Both the position numbers and the translations under genes were made by a program. A stretch of DNA of 64,000 bases from Candidatus Fermentibacteraceae bacterium (GTDB lineage Bacteria; Fermentibacterota; Fermentibacteria; Fermentibacterales; JCC-6): assembly GCA_016744855.1 (NCBI GenBank), contig JADGDO010000005.1, forward strand, positions 62,001 through 126,000, written 5' to 3'. Below, piece by piece: positions 6,339-56,480 of this stretch. The notes beneath the pieces were generated by a model that worked only from the letters and a program-made list of their open reading frames with translations, had not been told where the DNA came from and did no database searches. Numbering within the stretch: the stretch's first letter is position 1; each line of letters opens with the position of its first letter.

Positions 6339-6385
6339 TAGAGGTACCTTTCTTTTTGAGTTGATAGTTTCTGTTTCAACACTGT

Positions 6386-6414
6386 AGCATATTGAATGCC
6401 TGTTCTATGGACAA
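6386..6414 (-). promoter_or_regulatory. Predicted promoter of the trx operon
   Basis: On the minus strand TTGTCC (6414-6409) is followed after 17 bases by TATGCT (6391-6386), a reasonable sigma70-like -35/-10 pair placed about 40 bases before the trxA start after allowing for the transcription start. Motif reading by eye only. Confidence 0.45.
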
Positions 6415-6548
6415 GCAGGATATATAAATAGAGACTCTATTTTTGTACGGTGTGTCAATTCGATCTCGAGGCTGGGCCTTTGTATTCTCTTCTTTGTTGT
6501 GTATTATGGCCGTTGCTGTGATAAACATCAGCAGAAAAGGAGGAGGAT

Positions 6549-6962
6549 ATGAAAGCAGTATTGATAGTAGCGTTTGCTGTAAGTACTATGATGGCGTTTG
6601 GTGTTCCCGGCGTTCCAGATGTACCTGATGTTCCAGATACCGATATTCCGGATTTTGAAATCCCTGGAATGGGACTTCTGGATGACATACAACTCAAGCT
6701 CGATGGACTCGTTCTTCAGGCAGACGAGTTAGGTGATTTGATTCCGGAACTTGCTGTTCTTGATGAACTTTCTCTAAAACTTGAGGAACTTCGAGATACA
6801 GATCCTGAAATTGAGATGCTTCAGGCAGAGATAGATACATTCAGGAATGATTTGGTCTCAGCAAGAGAAGAAATACAGACTATTTCTGACGACCTGCAGG
6901 CTGAAGTCGGTACATTACAGGCGACTGTTGATGAATTCAAAGATGGTTTACCAATTCAGTAG
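6549..6962 (+). CDS. Small secreted VPD-repeat coiled-coil protein
   Basis: A 137-residue protein starting at an ATG behind a strong AAGGAGGAGGAT ribosome site. Residues 1-18 form a signal peptide. Residues 19-40 are a proline/aspartate-rich repeat (VPGVPDVPDVPD, then DIPDFEIPG). Residues 45-130 have a heptad-like leucine/isoleucine pattern with many acidic residues, predicted to be a long coiled coil. The protein is highly acidic and has no cysteine. The gene is single, with its own terminator at 6977-7008. I do not recognise a family; a periplasmic or surface structural/adaptor role is a guess. Confidence 0.7.
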   Translation: MKAVLIVAFAVSTMMAFGVPGVPDVPDVPDTDIPDFEIPGMGLLDDIQLKLDGLVLQADELGDLIPELAVLDELSLKLEELRDTDPEIEMLQAEIDTFRNDLVSAREEIQTISDDLQAEVGTLQATVDEFKDGLPIQ

Positions 6963-6976
6963 AAAACAAGTACTTA

Positions 6977-7008
6977 AGGAGCCGGGTGTTTACCCGGCTC
7001 CTTTTTTT
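6977..7008 (+). terminator. Intrinsic terminator of the VPD-repeat gene
   Basis: Perfect 11-base stem AGGAGCCGGGT (6977-6987) with ACCCGGCTCCT (6992-7002), a 4-base loop and a following T6 run. It lies 15 bases after the stop codon at 6962. Confidence 0.95.
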
Positions 7009-7025
7009 GTAATTTTTTGTAATTC

Positions 7026-8381
7026 TCAGTAAGCTCCTGAACCTTCGATAACAACAGAGGGAGTAAGCATCAGAATTGCCAGATCCATCCAGATAGACCA
7101 GTTGTCAACATAATAGAGATCCAGTTTGACCATCTCATCGAATCCCAGATTGCTTCTCCCTGATATTTGCCAAACGCCTGTGACTCCCGGGATCGTATGA
7201 AGCCTTTTAAAGTCTCGTCTGCTGTATTCTTCTACCTCTTCGGGGAGTGGAGGACGAGGACCGACTAAGCTCATCTTGCCAGATAGCACATTGAAAAGTT
7301 GTGGTAACTCATCTATTGACCAGCGTCTGATAACTCTACCTGCTCCAGTCAGCCTGGGATCATTTTTTATCTTAAACAAGGGTCCCTTTGACTCATTTTT
7401 GTGGGCAAGAGCAGCTTTTTCCCTGTGCGCTCCGACATGCATGGAACGAAATTTAAGCATTTTAAAGGGTTTGTTTCTTTTGCCAAGCCTTGTTTGTTTA
7501 TAAAAAACAGGGAAGCCGGAATTTACAACAATAGCAATTGCTGTGAAGAGGAAAACTGGAGCCAAAAAAACAATAAATATTGAAGAGAGAATAATATCCA
7601 AAGCTCTTTTTAGCACGAGTCCCCAGCCGGAGAGTGGTGCCGGTACGGATTCAATTAGGGTTGTTCCTCCCATGTGAGCCACTCTTGCTGTAAGACTGAC
7701 AAGAGAGAAAACATCAGCCTGTATTTTATAGTGAACACCGAGTTTTTCACAAACAAGAATAACTGCTGATAGTTTTTCTGAAGGAAGCGAGTGGTCAGCA
7801 ATAACCAGCTCATCGATGGCTTCATCCTTAATCATTGCAGAAATTTCTTCCTCGGGTGTTATCGGATCAAGATAGTTAACAATTTTGTAATTCACCTGAG
7901 CTCTGTTTTCCATGAAACTGCCCAGCTGGTGAGCCTGGTCAGAGTAACCGAGAATAAGAACCCTGGAAGGAGATCCGGTTATGCTTCTGAGTCTTCTAAA
8001 CTGAGAGTGCCATAAACTGATTAGTAAAGCAGAAGCCGGGAAAGAAAAGAAAAGAACAAATCTCGAAAAGAAGAGTTGCCTTGTAATAAAAGTTGTTGCC
8101 AGGGTGAAGAGCACAGCCATCAAAGCCCCGCGAATTATTCCGGCAATTTCTTCAATCATGCCGAGACCGAACTCGCGTTTGTAAACTTCGAAAACGGCCA
8201 TGAAAGCCACCTGAACCGAGCCTAGAACCAGCCCAGTTAAGAAGTAATGATAGATTGAAAGTCTGAAATCAGAACCCATTACATCAGCTAGAAGTGAGTG
8301 CCGTACCCAGAACCCGCCCATAAAGATGATAGAGATAAGAACAATATCGGACAACGGAAGAAGCAAGTTCATTTTTTTCAT
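7026..8381 (-). CDS. Polyprenyl glycosylphosphotransferase (WcaJ/WbaP-type sugar transferase)
   Basis: A 451-residue inner-membrane enzyme that starts a lipid-linked glycan by moving a sugar phosphate from a nucleotide sugar to undecaprenyl phosphate. The N-terminal half has about four membrane helices and a CoA-binding-like Rossmann region (RVLILGYSDQAHQLG near residue 143). The C-terminal catalytic domain begins after the re-entrant helix (about 260-285) and shows the family motifs KFRSMHVGA, WSIDELPQLFNVLSG, MSLVGPRPPLP and PGVTGVWQISGRS. The downstream end meets the terminator of the convergent gene. It overlaps the upstream glycosyltransferase by 4 bases, so both act in exopolysaccharide or O-antigen assembly. 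Confidence 0.93.
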   Translation of the reverse strand: MKKMNLLLPLSDIVLISIIFMGGFWVRHSLLADVMGSDFRLSIYHYFLTGLVLGSVQVAFMAVFEVYKREFGLGMIEEIAGIIRGALMAVLFTLATTFITRQLFFSRFVLFFSFPASALLISLWHSQFRRLRSITGSPSRVLILGYSDQAHQLGSFMENRAQVNYKIVNYLDPITPEEEISAMIKDEAIDELVIADHSLPSEKLSAVILVCEKLGVHYKIQADVFSLVSLTARVAHMGGTTLIESVPAPLSGWGLVLKRALDIILSSIFIVFLAPVFLFTAIAIVVNSGFPVFYKQTRLGKRNKPFKMLKFRSMHVGAHREKAALAHKNESKGPLFKIKNDPRLTGAGRVIRRWSIDELPQLFNVLSGKMSLVGPRPPLPEEVEEYSRRDFKRLHTIPGVTGVWQISGRSNLGFDEMVKLDLYYVDNWSIWMDLAILMLTPSVVIEGSGAY

Positions 8382-44363: not shown

Positions 44364-45572
44364 ATGAAAATAACAAGAGAACTCATTGAGAAGCTACCTA
44401 AAACAGACCTTCACCTACACTTGGATGGGTCTATCAGGATAAGTACTCTTATTGAACTAGCTAAAGAAAGCAATATAGAATTGCCTTCATATACAGTAGA
44501 AGGCCTGAAGGAAACTGTTTTTAAGGACAATTACAATGATCTGGAGGATTATTTAAAGGGGTTCGGTTATACCTGTTCAGTGATGCGCACCAGAGAAAAC
44601 ATAGAGAGAATTGCTTACGAGCTTGCCCTCGATAATCAGAATGAGGGGGTGCGCTATATAGAGGTTAGGTACGCACCTCAATTGCATGCCGGTGGAAACA
44701 TGACAATGCTGGAAACTATTGAAGCCGTTGATGCCGGCCTTTCAAGGGCAAAGCTTGAGTTTAACAACCGTGTGGAAGTTTCTTCAGGTGATGAGCCCCC
44801 ATTCGAGTACGGAATAATTACCTGCGCGATGCGCTACTTCAACAAGCACTTTTCTACCTATTACAGTGATATTGTCTCAGTGCACTCATACTCCGATGAG
44901 GATAAGATTTTTGGACTCGCCTCGTTGGAAATGGTGGGGGCCTCAGTTAAAGCAAGAAGAGAATTGGGGCTGCCTGTCGTGGGAGTTGACCTGGCAGGTC
45001 CCGAGAAGGGGAATCCACCGGTTCATCACAGGGAAGCCTATATGCATGCTCAGCGGAATTTCCTGAACAAAACAGTACATGCAGGCGAAGCCTATGGCCC
45101 GGAAAGCATTTTTCAGGCTATTACAGAGCTAGGTGCTGACCGTATAGGACACGCTACCTCTCTCTTTAATCCTTCAATTATCACAGACCCCTTAATTCTC
45201 AACAGAGATTTGTACATCAATGATCTGGTTCAATTTATTGCAAACCGGAGAATTACTCTGGAGGTCTGTCTTACTTCAAACATGCAGACTGATCCGAAAC
45301 TTCTTAGGCTCGAGGACCACCCCTTCCGCATGATGCTGGAAAACAAGTTATCCTGTTCGATTTGCACAGACAACAGAACAGTTTCTCATACCACTGTTAC
45401 AGATGAGGTCTACAAGGCAGTGAAAGCCTTCAACCTCTCTCTGAATGATGTCAAAACTCTTATGGTCTACGGGTTTAAGCGCAGCTTTTTCCCCCATGCA
45501 TACAGGGAAAAAAGGACTTATGTCAGACAGTGCATGAATTACTTCGAAAAGGTAGTAAGTGAGTTTGTCTGA
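44364..45572 (+). CDS. Adenosine deaminase (copy 1)
   Basis: A 402-residue adenosine deaminase-family protein. Zinc/substrate motifs: LPKTDLHLHLDGS (two His and the ribose-contact Asp), the Zn His and catalytic Glu in KTVHAGEAYGPES, GHATSLF, and the Asp site CTDNRTVSHTT. The TDNR form, with Asn after the Zn Asp, is known in actinobacterial-type enzymes. Converts adenosine to inosine, feeding hypoxanthine and the xanthine dehydrogenase nearby. First of a tandem pair of close paralogs. Confidence 0.9.
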   Translation: MKITRELIEKLPKTDLHLHLDGSIRISTLIELAKESNIELPSYTVEGLKETVFKDNYNDLEDYLKGFGYTCSVMRTRENIERIAYELALDNQNEGVRYIEVRYAPQLHAGGNMTMLETIEAVDAGLSRAKLEFNNRVEVSSGDEPPFEYGIITCAMRYFNKHFSTYYSDIVSVHSYSDEDKIFGLASLEMVGASVKARRELGLPVVGVDLAGPEKGNPPVHHREAYMHAQRNFLNKTVHAGEAYGPESIFQAITELGADRIGHATSLFNPSIITDPLILNRDLYINDLVQFIANRRITLEVCLTSNMQTDPKLLRLEDHPFRMMLENKLSCSICTDNRTVSHTTVTDEVYKAVKAFNLSLNDVKTLMVYGFKRSFFPHAYREKRTYVRQCMNYFEKVVSEFV

Positions 45573-45599
45573 CAAATACCATTGGGAAAAACTTCCGCT

Positions 45600-46808
45600 A
45601 TGAAAATTACACGTGAATTGATCAGACGACTTCCTAAAACAGATCTTCATGTTCATCTTGGTGGATCTGTACGCCTGGAAACCCTTATTGATCTGGCGGT
45701 AGCTGACGGAATAGAACTTCCCTCATATACCGTTCAAGGGTTGAAAGAAACTGTTTTTAAAGAAACGTACAGAGATCTTGAAGAGTATCTGAAGTGCTTT
45801 GTCTATCCCGGGGCAGTCATGCAGAAAGCTGATAATCTTGCAAGAATAGCCTATGAACTGGCTATTGATAATCAGAATGAAGGGGTCCGCTACCTTGAAG
45901 CTAGATTTGCACCACAGCGATATGCAGGTGGTGAAATGGACATTCATCAGGTGCTGGATGCTGTTAACGAAGGTTTGAGCCGCGCAAAAAAGGAATTCAA
46001 CAGCCGAGAATCAATTGCAGCCGGCAGCGAGCCCCCATTTGACTATGGAATTATTGCTTGTGCAATGCGCTACTTCACCCATGATTCATCATGTTATTAC
46101 AGAAACCTTTATTCAGTTCATTCCCATTCAACACCGGATAGAATTGTCGGGCTAGCCTCTTTTGAGCTGGCTGGAGCAGTAGTCAAGGCCAGACGGGAGC
46201 GGGGAGTTCCAGTTGTTGCAATTGATATCGCCGGCCGGGAGAAGGGTTATCCACCTATTCACCACAGTGAAGCTTACGCTCTTGCTCAGCGCAACTACAT
46301 AAATAAAACCGTGCATGCGGGTGAGGCATACGGCCCTGAAAGCATTTTTCAGGCTGTTACAGAGTTAGGTGCCGACAGGATAGGGCACGCTACTTCACTG
46401 TTTAGTGCCGAGTTGATAAGCGATCCTTCTGTTATTGATAAGCAGAGGTATGTTGATGACTTGGCAGGATTTATAGCAGATAGAAGAGTAACTATAGAAG
46501 TTTGTCTCTCTTCTAACATGCAGACTGCTCCGGAACTGCATCGTATTGAAGATCATCCATTTCGTAAAATGATGGAGAAAAGGTTATCATGTACAATTTG
46601 TACAGACAACCGAACTGTTTCTCACACAACGGTTACCGACGAAATTTACAAAGCAGTGAAGGCATTCAATCTCTCTTCAGCTCAGCTTAAAAACCTTGTA
46701 GCATACGGTTTCAAACGAAGTTTTTACCCGCACACTTATGAGCAGAAAAGAAGCTATGTAAAGCAGTGTATGGACTACTTCGAGAAAATTATCGCTGCTC
46801 CAGTTTGA
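45600..46808 (+). CDS. Adenosine deaminase-like protein (copy 2, tandem paralog)
   Basis: A 402-residue paralog of the preceding gene with closely similar length and motifs: KTVHAGEAYGPES, GHATSLF, CTDNRTVSHTT. In the first motif it reads LPKTDLHVHLGGS: the Asp of HXHLDG is Gly. In mouse ADA that Asp contacts the ribose 5'-OH. ATG 45600 aligns with copy 1; a TTG at 45582 is possible. Its last 20 bases overlap the convergent gene at 46789. It may deaminate a different purine compound. Confidence 0.85.
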   Translation: MKITRELIRRLPKTDLHVHLGGSVRLETLIDLAVADGIELPSYTVQGLKETVFKETYRDLEEYLKCFVYPGAVMQKADNLARIAYELAIDNQNEGVRYLEARFAPQRYAGGEMDIHQVLDAVNEGLSRAKKEFNSRESIAAGSEPPFDYGIIACAMRYFTHDSSCYYRNLYSVHSHSTPDRIVGLASFELAGAVVKARRERGVPVVAIDIAGREKGYPPIHHSEAYALAQRNYINKTVHAGEAYGPESIFQAVTELGADRIGHATSLFSAELISDPSVIDKQRYVDDLAGFIADRRVTIEVCLSSNMQTAPELHRIEDHPFRKMMEKRLSCTICTDNRTVSHTTVTDEIYKAVKAFNLSSAQLKNLVAYGFKRSFYPHTYEQKRSYVKQCMDYFEKIIAAPV

Positions 46809-47697
46809 CAGCACCCAGGAAAAGCCTCTCGTACTCAACCTCTCTGTCGTCGGAAGTCTCAAGATGAATTGTACTGATCTCGCTATTGTATTCCTCCGGT
46901 ATGGGGAAAACAAGCCAGAAAGAGCCTTCTTCTGTGAATGCAGGCTTCCAGGTCTCCCACAGAGCTGTGATCTCACTGGTCTTAAACCGTGAACCAGCCC
47001 AGCGGCAGAAAGTTTCGGGTATGAGCTGAGGGTCCAGTTCACCACCCATTGAAAAATCAAACGGGATGAATTCATCCTCTCTTATTTCCACAGGTGTCAC
47101 TCCGTATGGCGTGAAGAATAGTCCTTCAACAATTTCGTCTCCGGTGAAAACAGGTAATCTGTCTGGATTCCACTCCAGGAAGTTGTCTGCGAAACCGGAA
47201 TTTACAGTACACTCGTAATACAAAAAGTTCTCTGTGATTCCTGTGTTCTGATTGTAAAGAGAAAGAGAGGGAACAGCTCTCCAGTATTCTGTAGCCCAGG
47301 CGAATGGACCATTGTACATTCCGGGTTGTTCAACCTTTTCTACCATTCTTTCTGTTTCTTCAAATCCTGTATTACCGGAGACAGAGCTCAGATTCCATTC
47401 AGCTGTTTCATTTTCCAGAACATCAGGATCGGGGTAGATGGTTGTAAAAGTCTCACCGGTTCCGACCTTAACGGTAAATGTACCGTAAAAGGGCTCACCG
47501 TGTATCCAGACTACCGGTGCTTCAGCACACATATCCATATCGTTGTACATCTCTGCATCATTCCACGGGCTTCCACAGATAAGCGGGTCGTGGGTTTCAT
47601 CAAAAACAACAACACCCCACTCATGAACAAAGTTTTCTGCAGAGCTTCCTTCGTAGGCAATAGAAGTATCAACCAGCATCGCAACTATTGGTATCAT
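46789..47697 (-). CDS. Predicted secreted protein, HEWG-motif family (copy A)
   Basis: A 302-residue protein with a weak signal-like N-terminus and a GGAGG site 4 bases before the ATG. It is a clear paralog of the next gene upstream: shared blocks include VHEWGVVVF near residue 28, VVWIHGEPF near residue 62, FLYYECTVN, LFFTPYGV, EITALWETWKPAF, and a similar C-terminus (YERLFLGAVKL). A remote likeness to planctomycete/myxobacterial proteins that begin with a HEWGTF-type motif is recalled from memory only. No known domain or catalytic site; function unknown. Convergent overlap of 20 bases with the deaminase. Confidence 0.72.
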   Translation of the reverse strand: MIPIVAMLVDTSIAYEGSSAENFVHEWGVVVFDETHDPLICGSPWNDAEMYNDMDMCAEAPVVWIHGEPFYGTFTVKVGTGETFTTIYPDPDVLENETAEWNLSSVSGNTGFEETERMVEKVEQPGMYNGPFAWATEYWRAVPSLSLYNQNTGITENFLYYECTVNSGFADNFLEWNPDRLPVFTGDEIVEGLFFTPYGVTPVEIREDEFIPFDFSMGGELDPQLIPETFCRWAGSRFKTSEITALWETWKPAFTEEGSFWLVFPIPEEYNSEISTIHLETSDDREVEYERLFLGAVKLEQR

Positions 47698-47742: not shown

Positions 47743-48630
47743 CTATTCCGAGAAACTGAGTTTTACGGCTCCAAGGTAAAATCTTTCGTATTGCACTACT
47801 CGTTCCTCTGGAAAATCAAGACTGATATTGCTTATTTCATTGTGGTAGTTCCTCGGGACAGGGAATACAAGCCAGTATGAGTCTTCTTCACAGAATACAG
47901 GTTCCCATGTCTCCCACAGTGCAGTTATCTCCGAAGGCTTCAACCGGGTATTTGTCCAGCGGAGAATAGTGTTTGGTGCAATTTCAGGATCCAGCAATCC
48001 GCCCAGGTCAAAAGTGTATGGAACAAACTCACCCTGCTTTATCTCTACTGCTATTGCTCCGACAGGTGTAAAGAACAGAGCTTCCTGAACCTCATCTCCT
48101 GTGAACTGCGGGTTTCCAGTTTCACTCCAGCTGAAGAAATGGTCTGCAAAGTCCTGATTGACTTCACATTCGTAGTAGAGGAAACCCTCGGTTATAGCTG
48201 CACTGGCCTGGAACAATGGAAGTGACGGGACACTTCGCCAATGGTCAATAGCCCACCCGAAAGGCCCTTCGTAGTGGTTTTCGAGCGGGTTCCGATGAGT
48301 TGTCTCTGCAGAGGCAATGTCCCATTCTGCTACACCAGTGGCAGCTCTGTCAGGAACCGGGTAGGTGAATGTGATTGCCTGCTCACCTGTAGAGACAACA
48401 AAGGTTGCCTCCGAAAATGGTTCTCCGTGGATCCAGACTATGGGAGCAAATGCTTCAATGACAGGAGGTTCGTAATCGGGATACAGATCAAGATTTTTCC
48501 AGGCACCTCCGCAGACATGTGAGTTGTTCTGTTTAAAAACGACTACACCCCACTCGTGAACATGATTCTGAACATCAGCCGGAACAATTTCGTAGCAATC
48601 TGCAAAAAGCAGCAAGCCGATAAGTAACAT
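47743..48630 (-). CDS. Predicted secreted protein, HEWG-motif family (copy B)
   Basis: A 295-residue paralog of copy A. Start ATG 48630 (MLLIGLLLFADCYEI) has GAAGGGAG upstream and gives a signal peptide; a longer frame from 48651 is less likely. Shared motifs: VHEWGVVVF, IVWIHGEPF, FLYYECEVN, ALFFTPVGA, EITALWETWEPVF. The mature part is acidic and aromatic-rich and looks like a beta-rich extracytoplasmic domain. The gene lies 42 bases after the RlmN-like gene on the same strand and may belong to the same transcript. Confidence 0.72.
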   Translation of the reverse strand: MLLIGLLLFADCYEIVPADVQNHVHEWGVVVFKQNNSHVCGGAWKNLDLYPDYEPPVIEAFAPIVWIHGEPFSEATFVVSTGEQAITFTYPVPDRAATGVAEWDIASAETTHRNPLENHYEGPFGWAIDHWRSVPSLPLFQASAAITEGFLYYECEVNQDFADHFFSWSETGNPQFTGDEVQEALFFTPVGAIAVEIKQGEFVPYTFDLGGLLDPEIAPNTILRWTNTRLKPSEITALWETWEPVFCEEDSYWLVFPVPRNYHNEISNISLDFPEERVVQYERFYLGAVKLSFSE

Positions 48631-48672
48631 AATTCTCCCTTCGTTATTCAATATACACAGGGAGTCAGCCGA

Positions 48673-49623
48673 TTATTCCGGAAGCTCGTTTATGGGATAG
48701 GTATATCCTTCTTGCATTTCACTATCAGAATCAACATGAGCTTTTAGGTACTGACCGCAATTGCTTCCGATTTTGTTTTCTTCCTGCTCTCCGATACTGA
48801 GTATTACACTGTAACCAGCGCTTCTAATTTTTTCCACAAGTTCAATTCGTTCTTCACCCGAAGCCGGGTCTATGTGGGAAGAGAGGTTGTTCAACTGAGC
48901 GCGGTATGTTGGATTCAGCGGTGTAATCTTTATCAGAAAAAGATCAGGATGAAAGTACTTCTTAAGCACAACAGGTTCCAATGGTGAGCCTTTTGCAAGT
49001 GCGAAGTTCAGAGTAATCTTGCGATCACCGGTGGAATAAAAGTTTCTGCCATAATCTGCTATTTCAGCCATGCTCCAGCTGTCTACCGGTATTATCTGTC
49101 TTCGAAGAATCGGGTCTGTTGTGTGCAGTGAGAATTGAAGCTGGAAGTTGCCTTTTGAATAAAGATCACGCTTTACTCTGAGTAGATTCTCAAAAAAGCT
49201 ATCGGTTCCACGGGGAGCAACAGTCGATATCGAGGGCATAAACCCTGGAGCATCTATTCTGCCCGGAAGATCTCTAAGAACATCAATGACTGAAGGATTT
49301 AATGCAGGTTCTCCCATTCTTGCAAATTGAACTTTGAATTGTTGAGAGGGAACTTTCATATCCGGGAAACGCCTGCGGATCATCATTTCAATCTGCTGGG
49401 TTATCTGAAGAGCAGTCAGTTTTCCGTTGTATTCAGCACCAGCATCGCACATGGAGCATCCAACCGGGCAACCGAACAGAGTTGAAACCAGTAGAACCCA
49501 CTTTTGATCAATGGGCAAAGGGGGCTGTACCGATTCAGCACATTCTACGCGCAATCCATTTTTGTATTCAACAATGTACACTCTGGCCAGATCATCTCTG
49601 CCACTGGAAGCAATAACCTTCAT
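48673..49623 (-). CDS. RlmN/Cfr-like radical SAM protein lacking the N-terminal domain
   Basis: 316 residues. The whole core resembles RlmN/Cfr: CPVGCSMCDAG (CX3CX2C), LTALQITQQIE, GEPALNP, SLHTTDPILRRQIIPV, IKITPLNPTYRAQ, and the late cysteine in GSNCGQYLKAH. The position of RlmN Cys118, seven residues before the first cluster cysteine, is leucine (WVLLVSTLFGC). The N-terminal accessory domain is also absent. A straightforward rRNA methyltransferase role is doubtful. Its ATG follows the stop of the flavoprotein gene with no gap. Confidence 0.82.
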   Translation of the reverse strand: MKVIASSGRDDLARVYIVEYKNGLRVECAESVQPPLPIDQKWVLLVSTLFGCPVGCSMCDAGAEYNGKLTALQITQQIEMMIRRRFPDMKVPSQQFKVQFARMGEPALNPSVIDVLRDLPGRIDAPGFMPSISTVAPRGTDSFFENLLRVKRDLYSKGNFQLQFSLHTTDPILRRQIIPVDSWSMAEIADYGRNFYSTGDRKITLNFALAKGSPLEPVVLKKYFHPDLFLIKITPLNPTYRAQLNNLSSHIDPASGEERIELVEKIRSAGYSVILSIGEQEENKIGSNCGQYLKAHVDSDSEMQEGYTYPINELPE

Positions 49624-50433
49624 CTATAGGTCTCCGTATCTCTTTAGATATTTTACAGTTTTCATCGCTGCTTCAACCCCGTTGCCTACTGCTATTGAAG
49701 CCTGCCGATATTTTCCGTTTATACAGTCACCGCACATATGGAATGAACCGTCTTCAGGTGGCGAAGATAACAGTTTTTCAGAAATGATATCAAGTTCAGC
49801 AACTCTTCCAAATGCAACAACAATCAAATCTTCATCATAGCTTGCAGGAAGGTTATTAATATGTAAAGTGATTTTCCCGTTTTGCTGAACTTTGCGAAGA
49901 AGGTGTGGAACAGCCTTTGAGAAATCACCTCTGCTGTAAACATTTACTGTGTACCTGGAGCTTAGAGTCATTGCATAGTCGAGAGCCGCATCCCCTCCTC
50001 CGAGGACTGCAATTTGTTCACCATGGAAGTCCGCAGGATTTTTTACATCGTAGCGAATCCTGGCTTCTTCTATTCCCGGAATCACAGTGGTTACCGGAAC
50101 AGTTCCCGATGCCACAATCACACTGAAGGCTCTGGTACTAATACCCCTATCTGATTTTATCTTATAAATGGAATCTGTTCGGTCAATTAGGGTAACTTCA
50201 CTTCTCATAAGTCTGTCCGGAAGAGGAAATCTTCCAATGAGCTCCCTGCCAGATATTCCTTCAGGAACACCAGGAAAATTGATTACAGAGCATGCATTCA
50301 GAAATAGTCCTCCGGGCTCATCCCGTTCGAAAACCAGCGGATCTATACCATAGAGCTTCAATTGCCTGGCAGCAGCAAGGCCAGCCGGGCCACAGCCTAT
50401 TATGACTACTTTTTCCGTAGAACTAGTATTCAC
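49624..50433 (-). CDS. Thioredoxin-reductase-like FAD/NAD(P) flavoprotein without CXXC
   Basis: 269 residues. N-terminal FAD Rossmann VVIIGCGPAGLAAARQL, the GGLFLNACSVINFPGVPEG region as in TrxB-like enzymes, second nucleotide motif IAVLGGGDAALDYAMTL, and the C-terminal FAD motif FHMCGDCINGKYRQASIAVG. The redox CXXC between the two nucleotide regions is missing; a Cys-Gly-Asp-Cys near the C-terminus is probably part of the FAD motif. It may pass electrons from NAD(P)H to a partner, plausibly the radical SAM protein encoded immediately after it. Confidence 0.83.
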   Translation of the reverse strand: MNTSSTEKVVIIGCGPAGLAAARQLKLYGIDPLVFERDEPGGLFLNACSVINFPGVPEGISGRELIGRFPLPDRLMRSEVTLIDRTDSIYKIKSDRGISTRAFSVIVASGTVPVTTVIPGIEEARIRYDVKNPADFHGEQIAVLGGGDAALDYAMTLSSRYTVNVYSRGDFSKAVPHLLRKVQQNGKITLHINNLPASYDEDLIVVAFGRVAELDIISEKLLSSPPEDGSFHMCGDCINGKYRQASIAVGNGVEAAMKTVKYLKRYGDL

Positions 50434-51079
50434 AGATTGTCCTCATGCCCTTTAGAAGTGCTGAAACACAGGTAGGTTCGGCAAAACCGTGGGCCAGATT
50501 AACAGTAGTCGACCGGTGCAGTTCGCTGTTCACAGTTGCTGTTCCATTTACCGGCATAATAACTCTGTACCCTCTCACAAAAGCCGATCTGGCGGTTGTT
50601 TCACAACAGAGATTTGTCATTACTCCTGTAATAACAATAGTATTTATCTGAAGCTCCTCAAGTCTGCTTTGAAGGGAGGTTCTGTAAAATGCATCGTATT
50701 GTGGTTTTTCAATAATTTCCGCGTGTGATGTGTCGAAAGCACTGCATATCTCGCTTAGCGGGTTGTCGCGCGTTATCACATCTCTCCACCAACGACCCAT
50801 CATGTCGGCGTTTTCTGCTGTGTTGAGATGTTTTGTGAAAATAACAGGCAACTCGAGTCGATCAAATTCCGCTACGAGTGTTTGTAACACTGGAACAAGC
50901 TCTGGAGCAGAGGGAATAAATGCGTGCGATTCTGGAGAAATAAAGAAATCCTGCATATCCAGCACCAGAAGTGCAAGACCATTTGTGTCCAGCTCTTCAA
51001 TTGTGTTGTCGCAGAGCCCCTGCAAATCAATTGAGTCCCAGTAGTTTTCTTTCAACATCTCTCCATCCACTAAAGACAT
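50423..51079 (-). CDS. Isochorismatase-like cysteine hydrolase
   Basis: About 218 residues with the family triad: Asp in LLVLDMQDFF, Lys in EKPQYDAF, Cys in VMTNLCCETTARSAF. Members include nicotinamidases, isochorismatases and N-carbamoyl hydrolases; substrate undetermined here. Start is uncertain: ATG 51079 overlaps the end of bioA by 10 bases and has GAAGGA directly upstream; ATG 51106 and 51058 are alternatives. It overlaps the flavoprotein gene by 11 bases. Its place at the tail of the biotin operon suggests co-expression, not a biotin role. Confidence 0.85.
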   Translation of the reverse strand: MSLVDGEMLKENYWDSIDLQGLCDNTIEELDTNGLALLVLDMQDFFISPESHAFIPSAPELVPVLQTLVAEFDRLELPVIFTKHLNTAENADMMGRWWRDVITRDNPLSEICSAFDTSHAEIIEKPQYDAFYRTSLQSRLEELQINTIVITGVMTNLCCETTARSAFVRGYRVIMPVNGTATVNSELHRSTTVNLAHGFAEPTCVSALLKGMRTICEY

Positions 51080-52374
51080 TCCTTCAGGCAGTCCCCGAAT
51101 ATACAAAGCATTTCCTTCATATCAGTGGCGCTGGTTAGAAGAGGCGGCCAGAGGTACACAACTGAGCCAAGTGGTCTGATAATCAGACCCTTCTGAAGGG
51201 ACATCTCTGCAATTCTTGAAGCAGTACTGGCGCCTCCGCCGTCTTGTGAAATTTCCAGAGAACTCATGCAACCGAGAGTTGTGGAATTGTGAACTCCCGG
51301 AAATTCTCTGAACTCTCTGAATGCACCCGCAAGCAGAGTCGCAGGAGTTTTGCTCTGTTCAATAACATTTTCATTCTTGAATACCTCAAGCGCTGCAATC
51401 GCTGCCGCGGAAGCTAAGGGATTACCAGAAAATGTATGACCGTGATAGAAGGTCGTGTCTCTGAGTGAAGTTGGGCGAAAGGATTCAAATATTTCCGGGC
51501 TGGTGATAACAGCACTCATTGGCAGATAACCACCGGTAAGAGATTTCCCTGTTACCATTAAATCGGGTTGTATTTCCGCTAGGTCCGAAGCGAACATCTC
51601 GCCTGTTCTACCGAACCCTACCGCTATTTCGTCCAGAATAAGCAGTACATCCAGTTCGGTACAGAGTTTTCTCAAAAGAGTTACATATCCAGGGGGGTAA
51701 ATCCTGATCCCGGCAGCACCCTGACAGACAGGTTCAATAATGACAGCAGCAGTAGTTTCTGCATTTTCCCTAAGAAGCTGTTCCATATCACTGAAACACT
51801 GCAAAGAACAGTTGTTTTCGAAGGGGCAATGGAAGCAATGAGGCGCTGCTGCCTGGAGTGATCTATTAACTACATGCTCGATCGGTCTGTGGAACCGTGG
51901 CAGGAAACCAAGACCTACTGTTCCCAATGTGTCACCGTGATAAGCCCCGGAAAGAGAGACTATATTTTTTTTCTCAGGTTCTCCCAGATTCCACCAATAC
52001 TGTATGGATATCCGAAGTGCAGCTTCCACGCCACTCGCACCATCTGAAGCATAATAGACACGGTTCAGCGTTCCGGGTGCTATTGCCGAAAGCATTTCAG
52101 AGAGCTTAATTATGCCGGTGTGAGACATTCCGCCTGTAATGCTGTGCTGCAACGTAAGAGCTTGCTGCACAACAGAGTTTACAATATGCGGATGGCTGTG
52201 CCCAAGGTTTACGCACCACCATGAGCTAATACCATCCAGGTATTCTTTACCGGTTGTGTCTTTTAGTCTGACTCCACTTGCACTAGCGATTACAGGGAAC
52301 TCGGTTTTCTCAAATTTAGTAATGTCTGTGTATGGATGCCACAGGTGCTGAAGATCAGTTTTCCTGTAATTCAT
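51070..52374 (-). CDS. bioA: Adenosylmethionine-8-amino-7-oxononanoate aminotransferase
   Basis: A 434-residue class III aminotransferase. The BioA-specific N-terminus HLWHPYTDITKF and GISSWWCVNLGHSHP are present; ASDGASGVEAALRIS binds PLP phosphate, LLILDEIAVGFGRTG contains the PLP aspartate, and the PLP lysine is in VTGKSLTGGYLPMSAVI. Makes 7,8-diaminopelargonate with SAM as amino donor. Overlaps bioD by 20 bases. Confidence 0.95.
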   Translation of the reverse strand: MNYRKTDLQHLWHPYTDITKFEKTEFPVIASASGVRLKDTTGKEYLDGISSWWCVNLGHSHPHIVNSVVQQALTLQHSITGGMSHTGIIKLSEMLSAIAPGTLNRVYYASDGASGVEAALRISIQYWWNLGEPEKKNIVSLSGAYHGDTLGTVGLGFLPRFHRPIEHVVNRSLQAAAPHCFHCPFENNCSLQCFSDMEQLLRENAETTAAVIIEPVCQGAAGIRIYPPGYVTLLRKLCTELDVLLILDEIAVGFGRTGEMFASDLAEIQPDLMVTGKSLTGGYLPMSAVITSPEIFESFRPTSLRDTTFYHGHTFSGNPLASAAAIAALEVFKNENVIEQSKTPATLLAGAFREFREFPGVHNSTTLGCMSSLEISQDGGGASTASRIAEMSLQKGLIIRPLGSVVYLWPPLLTSATDMKEMLCIFGDCLKECL

Positions 52375-53056
52375 CAGACAATTTTCCTTTCAGCTTTGCA
52401 CCGATATCTGCAAAAGATTGACTCGGAAACAGACCCGGTGAATAAGGTACCTCTCCAAGTATTTCTACTCTCCCATATTCTTGGATTGCCTGTGTATTGC
52501 TTTTGCTTATGAGTTTAGAAGGGGGGGACGTGTGATTGATAACTACGCCTGCAACATCAAGTCCTGCATTCAGTAAAGCTGATATTGAAAGAAGTGTGTG
52601 ATTTATCGTACCGAGTTTATCTGATGAGACTAAAACCACAGGCCACCCCAGCTCAACCATTAAACTCAGCATTGTTTTACCATTCCCCAGCGGAACAAGA
52701 ATTCCACCAGCTCCTTCGGCTACAACACATTCGAAATCAGATTTTAGTTCAATCAAACCGGTAACCATTTCAGAAAGATTAATCTGACAGTCAGCCAATT
52801 CGCTGGCCAGGTGGGGAGAGCAGGCAGGAACGAATCTAAGGGGGCAGAGCTTTCGTAACACAATCTCATTGAAAGAGAGCCCCGCTATCTGGAGAGAATA
52901 GATCAGATCCTCTGGAATATCGTTAACGCAACCTGTCTGAACGGGCTTTGCTGGCACAGCATTAACTCCTGAATCAACAAGAAACTTTGTTATTCCTGCT
53001 GCTATAAATGTCTTCCCGACATCGGTATCTGTTCCCGTGATAAAGACAGATTTCAT
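52355..53056 (-). CDS. bioD: Dethiobiotin synthetase
   Basis: A 233-residue P-loop protein: FITGTDTDVGKTFIAAGI, PAKPVQTGC, VAEGAGGILVPLGNG and VLVSSDKLGTINHTLLSI. Closes the ureido ring of dethiobiotin using CO2 and ATP. ATGA-type 4-base overlap with bioC. Confidence 0.95.
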   Translation of the reverse strand: MKSVFITGTDTDVGKTFIAAGITKFLVDSGVNAVPAKPVQTGCVNDIPEDLIYSLQIAGLSFNEIVLRKLCPLRFVPACSPHLASELADCQINLSEMVTGLIELKSDFECVVAEGAGGILVPLGNGKTMLSLMVELGWPVVLVSSDKLGTINHTLLSISALLNAGLDVAGVVINHTSPPSKLISKSNTQAIQEYGRVEILGEVPYSPGLFPSQSFADIGAKLKGKLSDELQEN

Positions 53057-53853
53057 GTTTTGTCTCCTGATGCTGTTATGAAATGAATTTTATAGGTTGC
53101 AGGAACAGCTCCTGAATTGTCACCGTATTCTGAACTGTAATGGCTGAATGCTTTTCTCAGCATTCCGGGTAAAATGGTAGAAGCACCAGTGTGCCCGGAG
53201 AGAGATGCACCGATCCCACGCACGGCTCGAAGAGCATCAATGGGTGATTTGTACTGTACCCTGAAGCTTCTCGTGAAGGAAGAGCCCACATGAAAACCAG
53301 CCTTACGAAAAATGCAGTCCCAATCATCGCCTGATTTGTAATTCAGAGAGTCCCATCTGCTCTCTGTTTCATTGAAGCTGTTCTCCAGTTCACCGAGCAT
53401 ACCCCTGACAGGAATTGCATGAACAGTTGTTCCTCCGGGATTCAGCAGAGAATGGAGCTCTTGAACGAATTGTTCAGGGTTTTTCAACCACTGCAAAGCA
53501 CAACTCGAGACTGCCAGGTCATACCTTGATGTTGATTTCAGCTCTTCAAAATCGAGCAGAGTATGAGATATTTTTTGCGTGGGTGGAATCTTGTTTCTGC
53601 AGGCACTAACCATTCCGGGGGCACCATCTGTAAAATTTTTTGAAGCATCCGGGAATAATTCAGTCAGTCCCGAAGAAAGAATTCCTGTTCCACAGCCGAG
53701 CTCAATCAGTTTATCTGGATTCAAATTCTTTAGAATATTAAGCAGATCGTTTGCTATCAGTCGGTGGTGCTTAGCATGGCAGTCATATACTGGAGCTGCT
53801 TCAGAAAACCTTAGCAGTACAGATTTGCTGTCAGGAGTTAATACGTTTCTCAA
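53053..53853 (-). CDS. bioC: Malonyl-ACP O-methyltransferase
   Basis: A 266-residue SAM methyltransferase of the BioC type: LIELGCGTGILSSGL (motif I), DLAVSSCALQWLKNPEQF and GVRGIG-like late region (RAVRGIGASLSGH). It caps malonyl-ACP as a methyl ester so the fatty-acid machinery can build pimeloyl-ACP. It overlaps the esterase gene upstream by 23 bases, a typical partnership. Confidence 0.9.
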   Translation of the reverse strand: MRNVLTPDSKSVLLRFSEAAPVYDCHAKHHRLIANDLLNILKNLNPDKLIELGCGTGILSSGLTELFPDASKNFTDGAPGMVSACRNKIPPTQKISHTLLDFEELKSTSRYDLAVSSCALQWLKNPEQFVQELHSLLNPGGTTVHAIPVRGMLGELENSFNETESRWDSLNYKSGDDWDCIFRKAGFHVGSSFTRSFRVQYKSPIDALRAVRGIGASLSGHTGASTILPGMLRKAFSHYSSEYGDNSGAVPATYKIHFITASGDKT

Positions 53854-54490
53854 GCTCCATCACCCCCTCAATTATCAGATCAGGATGAGTCAAAGGAAGC
53901 AGATGGCCTGCTCCCTCCACTGGAATGACTGAAGCAGAGCCGCTAAAAAATCTATCTGCAATGTACGTGGAGCATTCGAAAGGGATTATCTGATCATGAG
54001 TTCCATGGATCAGCATAACCGGTAGAGATCTCGTTGGTTTAACCACTTTCTTAAACATGAAATCAAGCCCTTGTTGCAGCTCTTCCAGCGAGAAATCAAA
54101 GGACTGATTTATCAGAAGAGGAAGATTATCTCGAGTTGCTCCACATTCTCTGAAGAAAGATTTAAGGTACCCGGTTCGACTTTTCAGAAGCATTGAGGTT
54201 ATTTCTGATAAGGCAGAAGGTTTTACTCCCGGTCTGCATTGTGCTTCTGAGGATGCTATGCAGCACATTGAAGAAACCAGAATCAATCCCTTTATTTCAG
54301 TAATATTGAGCATTTCAAGAGCGAGCTGTCCACCCAGTGACCATCCAACAACAATGCAGGAAGCCGGAAGATCTGTAGAACCTGAAATAATATCGTTCCA
54401 TTCCAGAAAATGAATAGGATAACCGATATTACGGATGCTATCCCAGACATGACTCGAAGTTGCCCAGCCGCTGATAAATACGATTTCCAT
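53831..54490 (-). CDS. bioH: Alpha/beta hydrolase, BioH-like pimeloyl-ACP methyl ester esterase
   Basis: A 219-residue alpha/beta hydrolase with nucleophile motif GWSLGG (Ser), acid in LIHGTHDQIIPF (Asp) and base in VEGAGHLLPLTH (His). Position between bioF and bioC in a biotin operon makes it the probable esterase that frees pimeloyl-ACP from its methyl ester, like BioH; sequence alone does not separate it from BioG-type or other esterases. Confidence 0.78.
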   Translation of the reverse strand: MEIVFISGWATSSHVWDSIRNIGYPIHFLEWNDIISGSTDLPASCIVVGWSLGGQLALEMLNITEIKGLILVSSMCCIASSEAQCRPGVKPSALSEITSMLLKSRTGYLKSFFRECGATRDNLPLLINQSFDFSLEELQQGLDFMFKKVVKPTRSLPVMLIHGTHDQIIPFECSTYIADRFFSGSASVIPVEGAGHLLPLTHPDLIIEGVMELEKRINS

Positions 54491-54492
54491 GG

Positions 54493-55596
54493 TCAGTCTG
54501 CCTTCAAAAGAGAAATGACCTGCATCGCATCTTCCATTGAGTGACTCAGGGTTAAGGAGAACCTCAGACGAGCAGTACCTTCGGGCACTGTTGGTGGCCT
54601 GATTGCAACAGCAAGAATACCTGCTCTTTCAAAAGACTTTGACAGGGTGACTGCTTTTGAGTTTCCCCCCACTTTCACCGGTACAATCTGAGAATTTGAG
54701 TTGCAGGTATCAAAACCCAGTTCGTTAAGTCTGTTTCTAAACTGCGCAGCTTTGTTTAGCAGGGGCAGACCCATACTCGGGGTTGAATCAAGAATCTCCA
54801 GAGCACCCAGGGCTGCAGCCGTTGCAGCGGGTGGAAGTCCCGTGGTGTAAACAAAGCTTCGAGAACGGTTAACTAAGTATTCTCTTGTAGGTGCCGTGCA
54901 TGCTGCAAAGCCGCCGTAGCTTCCCAGAGCTTTGCTTAAGGTTCCAGTAATGATATCCGGGACGATACCAAGACTTTTACAAATACCGCCTCCCTGACCA
55001 AATACACCAATGGCATGTGCTTCATCTACCACAAGAATGCAGTCTTCAGAACGGGCCAGTTTGTGTATCTCCAAGAGGGGAGCAATGTCGCCGTTCATGC
55101 TGAAAACAGAGTCTGTTACTATGAATTTCTGCCCACTGCTGTTGTCTGAACAAATAAGATCAGAAAGATGTTCGATGTTGCAGTGTCGGTACCTTTTTAC
55201 AGTGGCTCTGGAAGCCGAAGCCCCGTCGATCAGGCTTGCATGATTGAGTTTGTCAGAAAAAATGACATCACCTCGAACGGAAAGTGCAGTTAACACCCCC
55301 ATATTTGTCAGGAAACCGCTTCCGAAGACAAGAGCAGTTTCCATTCCTGTTATTTTTGCAAGTTTTTCTTCCAGTTCCTCGTGGAGAGAAAGATTTCCTG
55401 CCATAAGGCGGGAGCCTCCAGCTCCTGTTCCGAATTGCTCCACAGCCTCGATGGCTCTTTTTTTAACGAGTGGGTGAGAGGATAGATTGAGATAGTCGTT
55501 TGTAGAGAAATTCAGAAACTCTCCGGTATGAAGTCTCAGTTCTCGAATGAGACCTTGATTTTCAAGTTTTTTCATTGATTCAATCAGGGTCTTCAT
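54493..55596 (-). CDS. bioF: 8-amino-7-oxononanoate synthase
   Basis: A 367-residue PLP enzyme: FGTGAGGSRLMAGN, LVFGSGFLTNMGVLTAL, DEAHAIGVFGQGG, and the PLP lysine in TGTLSKALGSYGGF. Condenses pimeloyl-ACP with alanine. Overlaps bioB by 4 bases. Confidence 0.95.
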   Translation of the reverse strand: MKTLIESMKKLENQGLIRELRLHTGEFLNFSTNDYLNLSSHPLVKKRAIEAVEQFGTGAGGSRLMAGNLSLHEELEEKLAKITGMETALVFGSGFLTNMGVLTALSVRGDVIFSDKLNHASLIDGASASRATVKRYRHCNIEHLSDLICSDNSSGQKFIVTDSVFSMNGDIAPLLEIHKLARSEDCILVVDEAHAIGVFGQGGGICKSLGIVPDIITGTLSKALGSYGGFAACTAPTREYLVNRSRSFVYTTGLPPAATAAALGALEILDSTPSMGLPLLNKAAQFRNRLNELGFDTCNSNSQIVPVKVGGNSKAVTLSKSFERAGILAVAIRPPTVPEGTARLRFSLTLSHSMEDAMQVISLLKAD

Positions 55597-56480
55597 ACAC
55601 TGAACCCTGTACTCAGGATGAGGTCAAGATCATCCTCATACTGACTACCTGTTGTCGTGAGCAGTGTACCAGTCATGATTCCTGTTACTCCGAATGAAAA
55701 CATTTTTTCAGCCATTTCACCAAGACTGTGCCGCCCGGCACAAATTCTCAATTCAGCAGTGGGGTTCACCATCCTGAACATTCCGATAATGCGGAGCAGT
55801 TTATCCTCTGTAAGATTCTCGTCTTTAACAGCGGCTCCTTTGACAGGCACAAAGAAATTAAGAGCAATTGAATCAACCTCAAGTTCTCGAAGAGAGAAGG
55901 CCAGGTCAACTCGATCCTCATCGGATTCCCCGATGCCGATGATTCCACCTGAGCAAACAGACATTCCTGCAAGCTTAGCCCTTCTTACTGTCATTGCCCT
56001 GTCTTCCCAACTATGCGTTGTACATATAGAGGGAAAGAAAGAGGCAGAAGTCTCAAGATTATGATGGTACCGGGATACGCCGGCAGCATGAAGCTTTTTA
56101 AGATTGCTGAATGAAAGGATTCCTAGAGAAGCACACACAGGGCAGTATCCGCTTCCAGCTGAAGCAGCTTCGCAAATTGTTTCAAAATCGACACCATCCA
56201 AGCCTCTGCCACTTGTAACCATTGAGAATCTGTGGATGCCTGCGTCTGAAGTTGAGCGGTGCTCATCAATGATTTCATGGAGATTCTTCATCGGACTTCC
56301 ACTGCTGCCTGCCTGTGCGCAGAAGGCACAATCTTCAGAACAGTCTCCATTCTTCGCATTAAGAATTGCGCATAATTCAACTTTGTTACCAAATTTTTCT
56401 GATCGCTTTATGCTGCACATGTTTTCGATTTCATCTAAGGGGAGAATAGAGAGAATGTCATGTGCTGTCTGTCTAGTCAT
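55593..56480 (-). CDS. bioB: Biotin synthase
   Basis: A 295-residue radical SAM enzyme: CSEDCAFCAQ (CX3CX2C for the [4Fe-4S] cluster), SRYHHNLETSASFF, SVCSGGIIGIGES and LRICAGRHSLGEM, which contains the conserved arginine of the [2Fe-2S] site region. Inserts sulfur into dethiobiotin. Somewhat shorter than the E. coli enzyme (about 346). Overlaps birA by 8 bases. Confidence 0.95.
   Translation of the reverse strand: MTRQTAHDILSILPLDEIENMCSIKRSEKFGNKVELCAILNAKNGDCSEDCAFCAQAGSSGSPMKNLHEIIDEHRSTSDAGIHRFSMVTSGRGLDGVDFETICEAASAGSGYCPVCASLGILSFSNLKKLHAAGVSRYHHNLETSASFFPSICTTHSWEDRAMTVRRAKLAGMSVCSGGIIGIGESDEDRVDLAFSLRELEVDSIALNFFVPVKGAAVKDENLTEDKLLRIIGMFRMVNPTAELRICAGRHSLGEMAEKMFSFGVTGIMTGTLLTTTGSQYEDDLDLILSTGFSV

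Follow-up and report, generated by a model that had tools for sequence, protein, structure and literature searches.

Three genes at one locus

The window (the whole 64,000-nucleotide stretch of DNA analysed here, from a Fermentibacterota assembly of 3.24 Mb) contains three tightly packed genes on the minus strand, which an initial, sequence-only reading had picked out as a coupled module. The first gene (50423..51079) encodes an isochorismatase-fold cysteine hydrolase of 218 amino acids, assigned by its open reading frame and a match to PF00857, and has an alternative, longer TTG start at 51106. The second (49624..50433), which opens with GTG, encodes a 269-amino-acid thioredoxin-reductase-like FAD/NAD(P)H flavoprotein without a CXXC motif (TIGR01292 and Pyr_redox matches), and the third (48673..49623) a radical SAM protein of 316 amino acids that lacks the N-terminal domain and is of RlmN/Cfr type. 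All three are real open reading frames, arranged as first described: the hydrolase gene shares its last 11 nucleotides with the start of the flavoprotein gene, and the ATG of the radical SAM gene directly abuts the flavoprotein stop codon.

Immediately upstream of the module, on the same strand, lie the biotin genes bioB-bioF-bioH-like-bioC-bioD-bioA (51070..56480, NCBIfam matches). Directly downstream are tandem paralogues of 302 amino acids, about 47% identical (46789-47697 and 47743-48651, minus strand), for which no Pfam family scored above its cut-off; one to three copies of this gene are found in other loci of Candidatus Sabulitectum, the source of the named loci nearest to that in the window. 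Two tandem, similar genes of about 400 codons on the plus strand (44364-45572 and 45582-46808) appear by eye to encode adenosine-deaminase-type hydrolases.

A radical SAM subfamily apart from RlmN and Cfr

An alignment was built of 23 diverse members of the radical SAM subfamily and 14 RlmN/Cfr-type proteins, the latter mostly from other genomes. The RlmN landmarks recognised in the window protein, including the late CGQ cysteine, are kept throughout the subfamily: the [4Fe-4S]-binding CX3CX2C motif (CPVGCSMC in the window; Cys52/Cys56/Cys59, 49447..49470, minus strand) is intact in 23/23 members, and the column of Cys289 (in GSNCGQ; codon 48757..48759, minus strand), which is that of the methyl-carrying Cys355 of RlmN and Cys338 of Cfr, is cysteine in all 23 and in 14/14 RlmN-type proteins. 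The RlmN Glu105 and Asn312 columns are also common to both groups. At RlmN Cys118 (Cfr Cys105) the alignment splits cleanly. The window protein has Leu45 here (codon 49489..49491, minus strand), as had been proposed, and a profile alignment to the Cfr structure likewise places Leu45 at Cfr Cys105; the column is aliphatic in every subfamily member (Ile in 16, Val in three, Leu in two and Met in two), versus cysteine in all 14 RlmN/Cfr-type proteins. No RlmN/Cfr-type sequence with leucine at Cys118 was seen.

The first cluster cysteine is preceded by a median of 52 residues in the subfamily versus 128 in RlmN-type proteins, subfamily members starting about 75 residues later than RlmN; thus the N-terminal HhH2-type RNA-binding domain is absent, as the window protein had first suggested. 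Mean net charge is -2 in the subfamily versus +7 in RlmN-type proteins, the loop before the late cysteine has Glu in place of the Gly/Arg of RlmN (the invariant Glu282 standing in for Gly), and other basic positions of RlmN are substituted. Residues invariant in the subfamily that RlmN lacks are CDAG, K97, Q99, R102, N206, K232 and E282.

With the TIGR00048 model for RlmN the window protein scores 36.1 bits (cut-off 290), and with the CfrAB model 32.3 bits (cut-off 530). In a phylogenetic tree a branch supported at 100/100 separates the subfamily from RlmN/Cfr, and among 385 genomes no match scored between the two groups except for contig-end fragments, with the proviso that members were gathered by high score and intermediates could have escaped. 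By sequence profile, the only PDB relatives are RlmN and Cfr. A structure model of the protein was poor (pLDDT 61); a fold search with it placed Cfr third with no match at E<0.001, and we draw no structural claim from this low-confidence model. A plasmid search gave matches of RlmN and Cfr(C) type only. At one locus (L055, genome G027) the radical SAM gene lies in two frames near residue 55, by a frameshift or an assembly error.

A full-length RlmN (356 bits) is encoded elsewhere in the same genome as the window, so the module gene is not the cell's RlmN. Together with the aliphatic Cys118 column and the missing RNA-binding domain, this supports the original suggestion that the reaction is not the standard A2503 methylation. 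Since two defining features of RlmN and Cfr fail, the protein should be named neither RlmN nor Cfr, even if it may partly work like them.

The partner enzymes

The flavoprotein scores 102.7 bits with TIGR01292, below the cut-off of 343, while Pfam Pyr_redox families score above theirs. Its family keeps GxGPxG, the NAD(P) motif and Arg168. The absence of the thioredoxin reductase CXXC, noted at first for the window protein, extends to the family as a whole: no conserved cysteine pair occurs anywhere among 32 members, which rules out disulfide reduction of the thioredoxin reductase kind. The window flavoprotein has a CGDC near residue 234, which falls at the FAD-binding GD motif and is not a conserved feature of the family.

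The hydrolase scores 125.8 bits with PF00857 (cut-off 27). Its triad is Asp41, Lys125 and Cys158 (codons 50959-50957, 50707-50705 and 50608-50606, minus strand); the columns of Lys125, Cys158, His84 and His188 are invariant in 24 diverse members, and Asp41 is found in nearly all. Among proteins of solved structure, those closest to it in sequence are EntB, a Pseudomonas cysteine hydrolase, YecD and RutB, and a fold search with a low-confidence model returned RutB, triuret/biuret hydrolase, YecD and EntB. Hydrolase and flavoprotein alike fall below the cut-off of every named NCBIfam equivalog.

Conservation and co-occurrence of the trio

Within the Fermentibacterota, 38 of 42 genomes gave some match to the radical SAM protein; 33 of these have a clear subfamily member, and the rest are RlmN. 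The order hydrolase, flavoprotein, radical SAM is kept in the loci examined in this phylum, including two genomes of another family. Outside it, a search of about 340 genomes with an alignment as query found strong matches (at least 240 bits) in 24 genomes from roughly 19 families, with the same gene order and strand in their flanks. In the Thermotogota the trio is present in 45 of 103 genomes, among them those that we take to be Thermotoga maritima MSB8 (G480), T. petrophila, Fervidobacterium nodosum and Kosmotoga olearia. A 4-nucleotide overlap between the flavoprotein gene and the radical SAM gene is common. Dozens of genomes share this gene order, far more than chance would give, and the proposal of a coupled module is borne out in the Fermentibacterota, the Thermotogota and about 17 further families.

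Profiles of the hydrolase and the flavoprotein were run against 20 genomes. Each of the 16 that carry the radical SAM gene has a hydrolase scoring at least 195 bits and, bar a contig break in G312, a module-type flavoprotein next to the radical SAM gene. In five or six of the 16 (G044, G175, G177, G144, G458 and perhaps G312) the hydrolase gene is present but unlinked. The four genomes without the radical SAM gene, a small set in which one (G031) is 79% complete, have no hydrolase at E 1e-10, and their flavoproteins score only at the level of ordinary thioredoxin reductases. Pairwise divergences of the three proteins are correlated (r = 0.75-0.84). The matched presence and absence and the correlated divergences are strong evidence that the trio is one functional unit. 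Loss of the neighbours in relatives, which would have told against coupling, is not what we see: close and distant relatives keep them, and split operons retain the hydrolase elsewhere.

Clustering of all neighbouring genes revealed no fourth partner recurring across distant loci, and inspection by eye of the neighbours of unlinked hydrolase genes suggested no extra one. Several loci depart from the usual arrangement. In L148 (G480) the flavoprotein gene is separated from the radical SAM gene by a TnpB-like transposon gene on the opposite strand (6519-7763, minus), which interrupts the operon. In L147, presumably from T. petrophila, the same position holds a gene for a 190-amino-acid glyoxalase-II-like protein of metallo-beta-lactamase fold (6350-6922, minus), possibly a fourth enzyme in that genus only. 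In L157 and L173, from two lineages, the hydrolase gene has been inverted and now flanks the radical SAM gene on its opposite side, still adjacent. Two further candidates were discarded: an apparent flavoprotein-radical SAM fusion in L161 is an out-of-frame read-through, the flavoprotein lying in another frame, and a seemingly stand-alone radical SAM gene in G161 is an artefact of open reading frame selection, the trio there being intact.

Genomic context

The module had been suggested as a possible undescribed enzyme system placed at the end of the biotin operon. As far as the literature and databases could be searched, it is indeed undescribed, but the biotin address does not generalise: biotin genes lie beside the module only in Ca. 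Sabulitectum loci, and in other genera and phyla the neighbours are different, including recG/lipS2, rpoA/L17, tyrosyl-tRNA synthetase and an AcrB-type transporter, as well as a selD-like gene and thiamine-type genes (named by eye). A function in biotin metabolism was rejected on these grounds. A function in lipoate metabolism was rejected as well, because LipS2 (80/103 genomes) and the trio (45/103) are independent in the Thermotogota, each occurring without the other, and one genus carries the trio yet lacks LipS2. No riboswitch was found near the module with Rfam, and no neighbour, riboswitch or fusion in the loci examined indicates a pathway.

A proposed pathway and its alternatives

In RlmN and Cfr, the late cysteine is methylated by SAM, the 5'-deoxyadenosyl radical takes a hydrogen from the methyl group, and the radical thus formed attacks adenine at C2 or C8; Cys118 (Cys105 in Cfr) takes the C2 or C8 proton and is needed for breakdown of the crosslink, and without it the enzyme remains crosslinked to the RNA (PMC9692996; PMC13001441). 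The module enzyme retains all that the opening steps require and is missing the residue that the closing one needs.

The three genes appear to encode a single, small metabolic system that is passed on intact; their coupling is well supported, and for substrate and chemistry we infer the following scheme. We hold it to be nearly an even call that the module forms an undescribed pathway for a small molecule, with the flavoprotein supplying electrons to an enzyme of RlmN type and this enzyme passing on a one-carbon unit carried by its late cysteine, in the absence of a Cys118 base. The substrate would be a small molecule or small conjugate and not rRNA or tRNA, as argued from the loss of Cys118, the absent N-terminal domain, the negative charge and the glutamate before the late cysteine; a small RNA or a protein substrate would still be compatible with loss of the N-terminal domain alone. 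The hydrolase would make or trim an amide or ureido group on the substrate, and the flavoprotein would pass electrons from NAD(P)H to the [4Fe-4S] cluster, directly or via ferredoxin or flavodoxin. The radical SAM enzyme would load the methyl group of SAM onto Cys289, a methylation that is putative in that conservation of the residue does not prove methyl loading. The 5'-deoxyadenosyl radical would then take a hydrogen from methyl-Cys289, and the Cys-S-CH2 radical would add to the substrate as in RlmN. With an aliphatic residue in place of the Cys118 base, resolution of the adduct would have to take another route, for example through the substrate's own proton or leaving group, an external thiol, or reduction, and the product is probably not that of a simple RlmN-style aromatic C-H methylation through a cysteine base.

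The flavoprotein is an obvious candidate for electron donor, and donation to the [4Fe-4S] cluster is plausible given two precedents for flavoprotein partners of radical SAM enzymes: LipT, encoded beside LipS1/S2, is a proposed electron-supplying flavoprotein (PMC10332631), and a flavodoxin-superfamily protein serves the HmuW operon (PMC10404700). It could instead act on a metabolite, as a catalytic pathway enzyme that oxidises or reduces a small molecule, with the radical SAM enzyme drawing on a general flavodoxin or ferredoxin. Many metabolite-acting enzymes are built on the thioredoxin reductase fold, and a dedicated donor is the exception among radical SAM enzymes. However, the tightest adjacency is that of the flavoprotein with the radical SAM gene, seen in the 4-nucleotide overlaps, and where the hydrolase is unlinked the flavoprotein stays with the radical SAM gene (in the loci examined, bar the one contig break). 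We regard a catalytic role as less likely than not.

A less probable alternative departs from the favoured scheme at Cys289, which would be a hydrogen-atom donor and not a methyl carrier; the enzyme would be a small-molecule epimerase, reductase or lyase that reuses the RlmN fold, with the flavoprotein re-reducing the thiyl radical and the cluster. A single extra active-site cysteine is the pattern of radical SAM epimerases, the subfamily has one conserved active-site cysteine besides those of the cluster, and a dedicated reductase would suit thiyl radical re-reduction. Yet the CGQ signature of RlmN/Cfr and the Glu105 and Asn312 columns are kept, which favours retained methyl loading.

We think it quite improbable that the protein modifies a new RNA target, the partner proteins supplying substrate binding in place of the N-terminal domain. 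All solved homologues do modify RNA, and Thermotoga RNAs carry uncharacterised modifications. Against this, the N-terminal domain is lost, the net charge is negative and Arg/Lys near the late cysteine has given way to Glu; neither partner has an RNA-binding fold, an amidase would have no obvious role, and a true RlmN is present in the same genome. Finally, the idea that the genes are accidental neighbours or part of the biotin pathway, prompted by their position directly after bioA in the window and after lipS2 in one Thermotogota family, is already refuted by the conserved order and co-occurrence, the trio being found in many phyla amid unrelated neighbours and, in the Thermotogota, occurring without LipS2 just as LipS2 occurs without the trio.

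Returning to the small-molecule scheme, we tentatively suggest that the module may represent a new functional class of radical SAM enzymes: an RlmN-derived methyl-cysteine enzyme that acts on a small molecule without a resolving cysteine and whose product is not a methylated nucleobase, within an undescribed three-enzyme pathway of diverse bacteria including Thermotoga. Such products would be methylene-linked, reductively released or otherwise one-carbon in nature.

Comparison with known systems

The trio is genuine and conserved. Its individual folds are known; the trio itself is undescribed within the reach of the searches. We found no curated family, solved structure or paper for it; in a literature search that missed most subscription journals, radical SAM, RlmN and isochorismatase together returned nothing, and other combinations nothing relevant.

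The hydrolase shares its fold and Asp-Lys-Cys triad with RutB, biuret/triuret hydrolase, YecD and EntB, but falls short of every named NCBIfam equivalog and forms its own group, tied to the radical SAM gene. Similarly, the flavoprotein has the FAD and NAD(P)H domains and motifs of thioredoxin reductase and the related ferredoxin/flavodoxin-NADP reductases; unlike thioredoxin reductase, it has no redox CXXC, is shorter (about 260-310 amino acids) and scores far under the family cut-off. A parallel is found in the LipS1/LipS2-LipT lipoyl synthase system, where an FAD/NAD(P)H partner is likewise proposed as the electron source of radical SAM enzymes (PMC10332631), but LipS1 and LipS2 are biotin-synthase-like and not RlmN-like, no hydrolase is involved, and LipS2 and the trio occur independently.

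RlmN and Cfr, the two prominent class A radical SAM methylases, each require a pair of cysteines and a substrate made of RNA. The module protein shares with them the radical SAM core, CX3CX2C, Glu105, Asn312 and the late cysteine, and differs in having neither Cys118/Cys105 nor the N-terminal HhH2 RNA-binding domain, in being acidic rather than basic, in its own invariant residues and in its two partner enzymes. The module thus presents the class with one cysteine and the RNA-binding domain removed and the enzyme tied to an amidase-like hydrolase and a reductase. As such, it opens the role of the second cysteine and the range of the class A reaction to direct tests, for which a cultured organism offers heat-stable proteins, and the module may reveal a missing metabolic step borne by many genomes under generic gene names.
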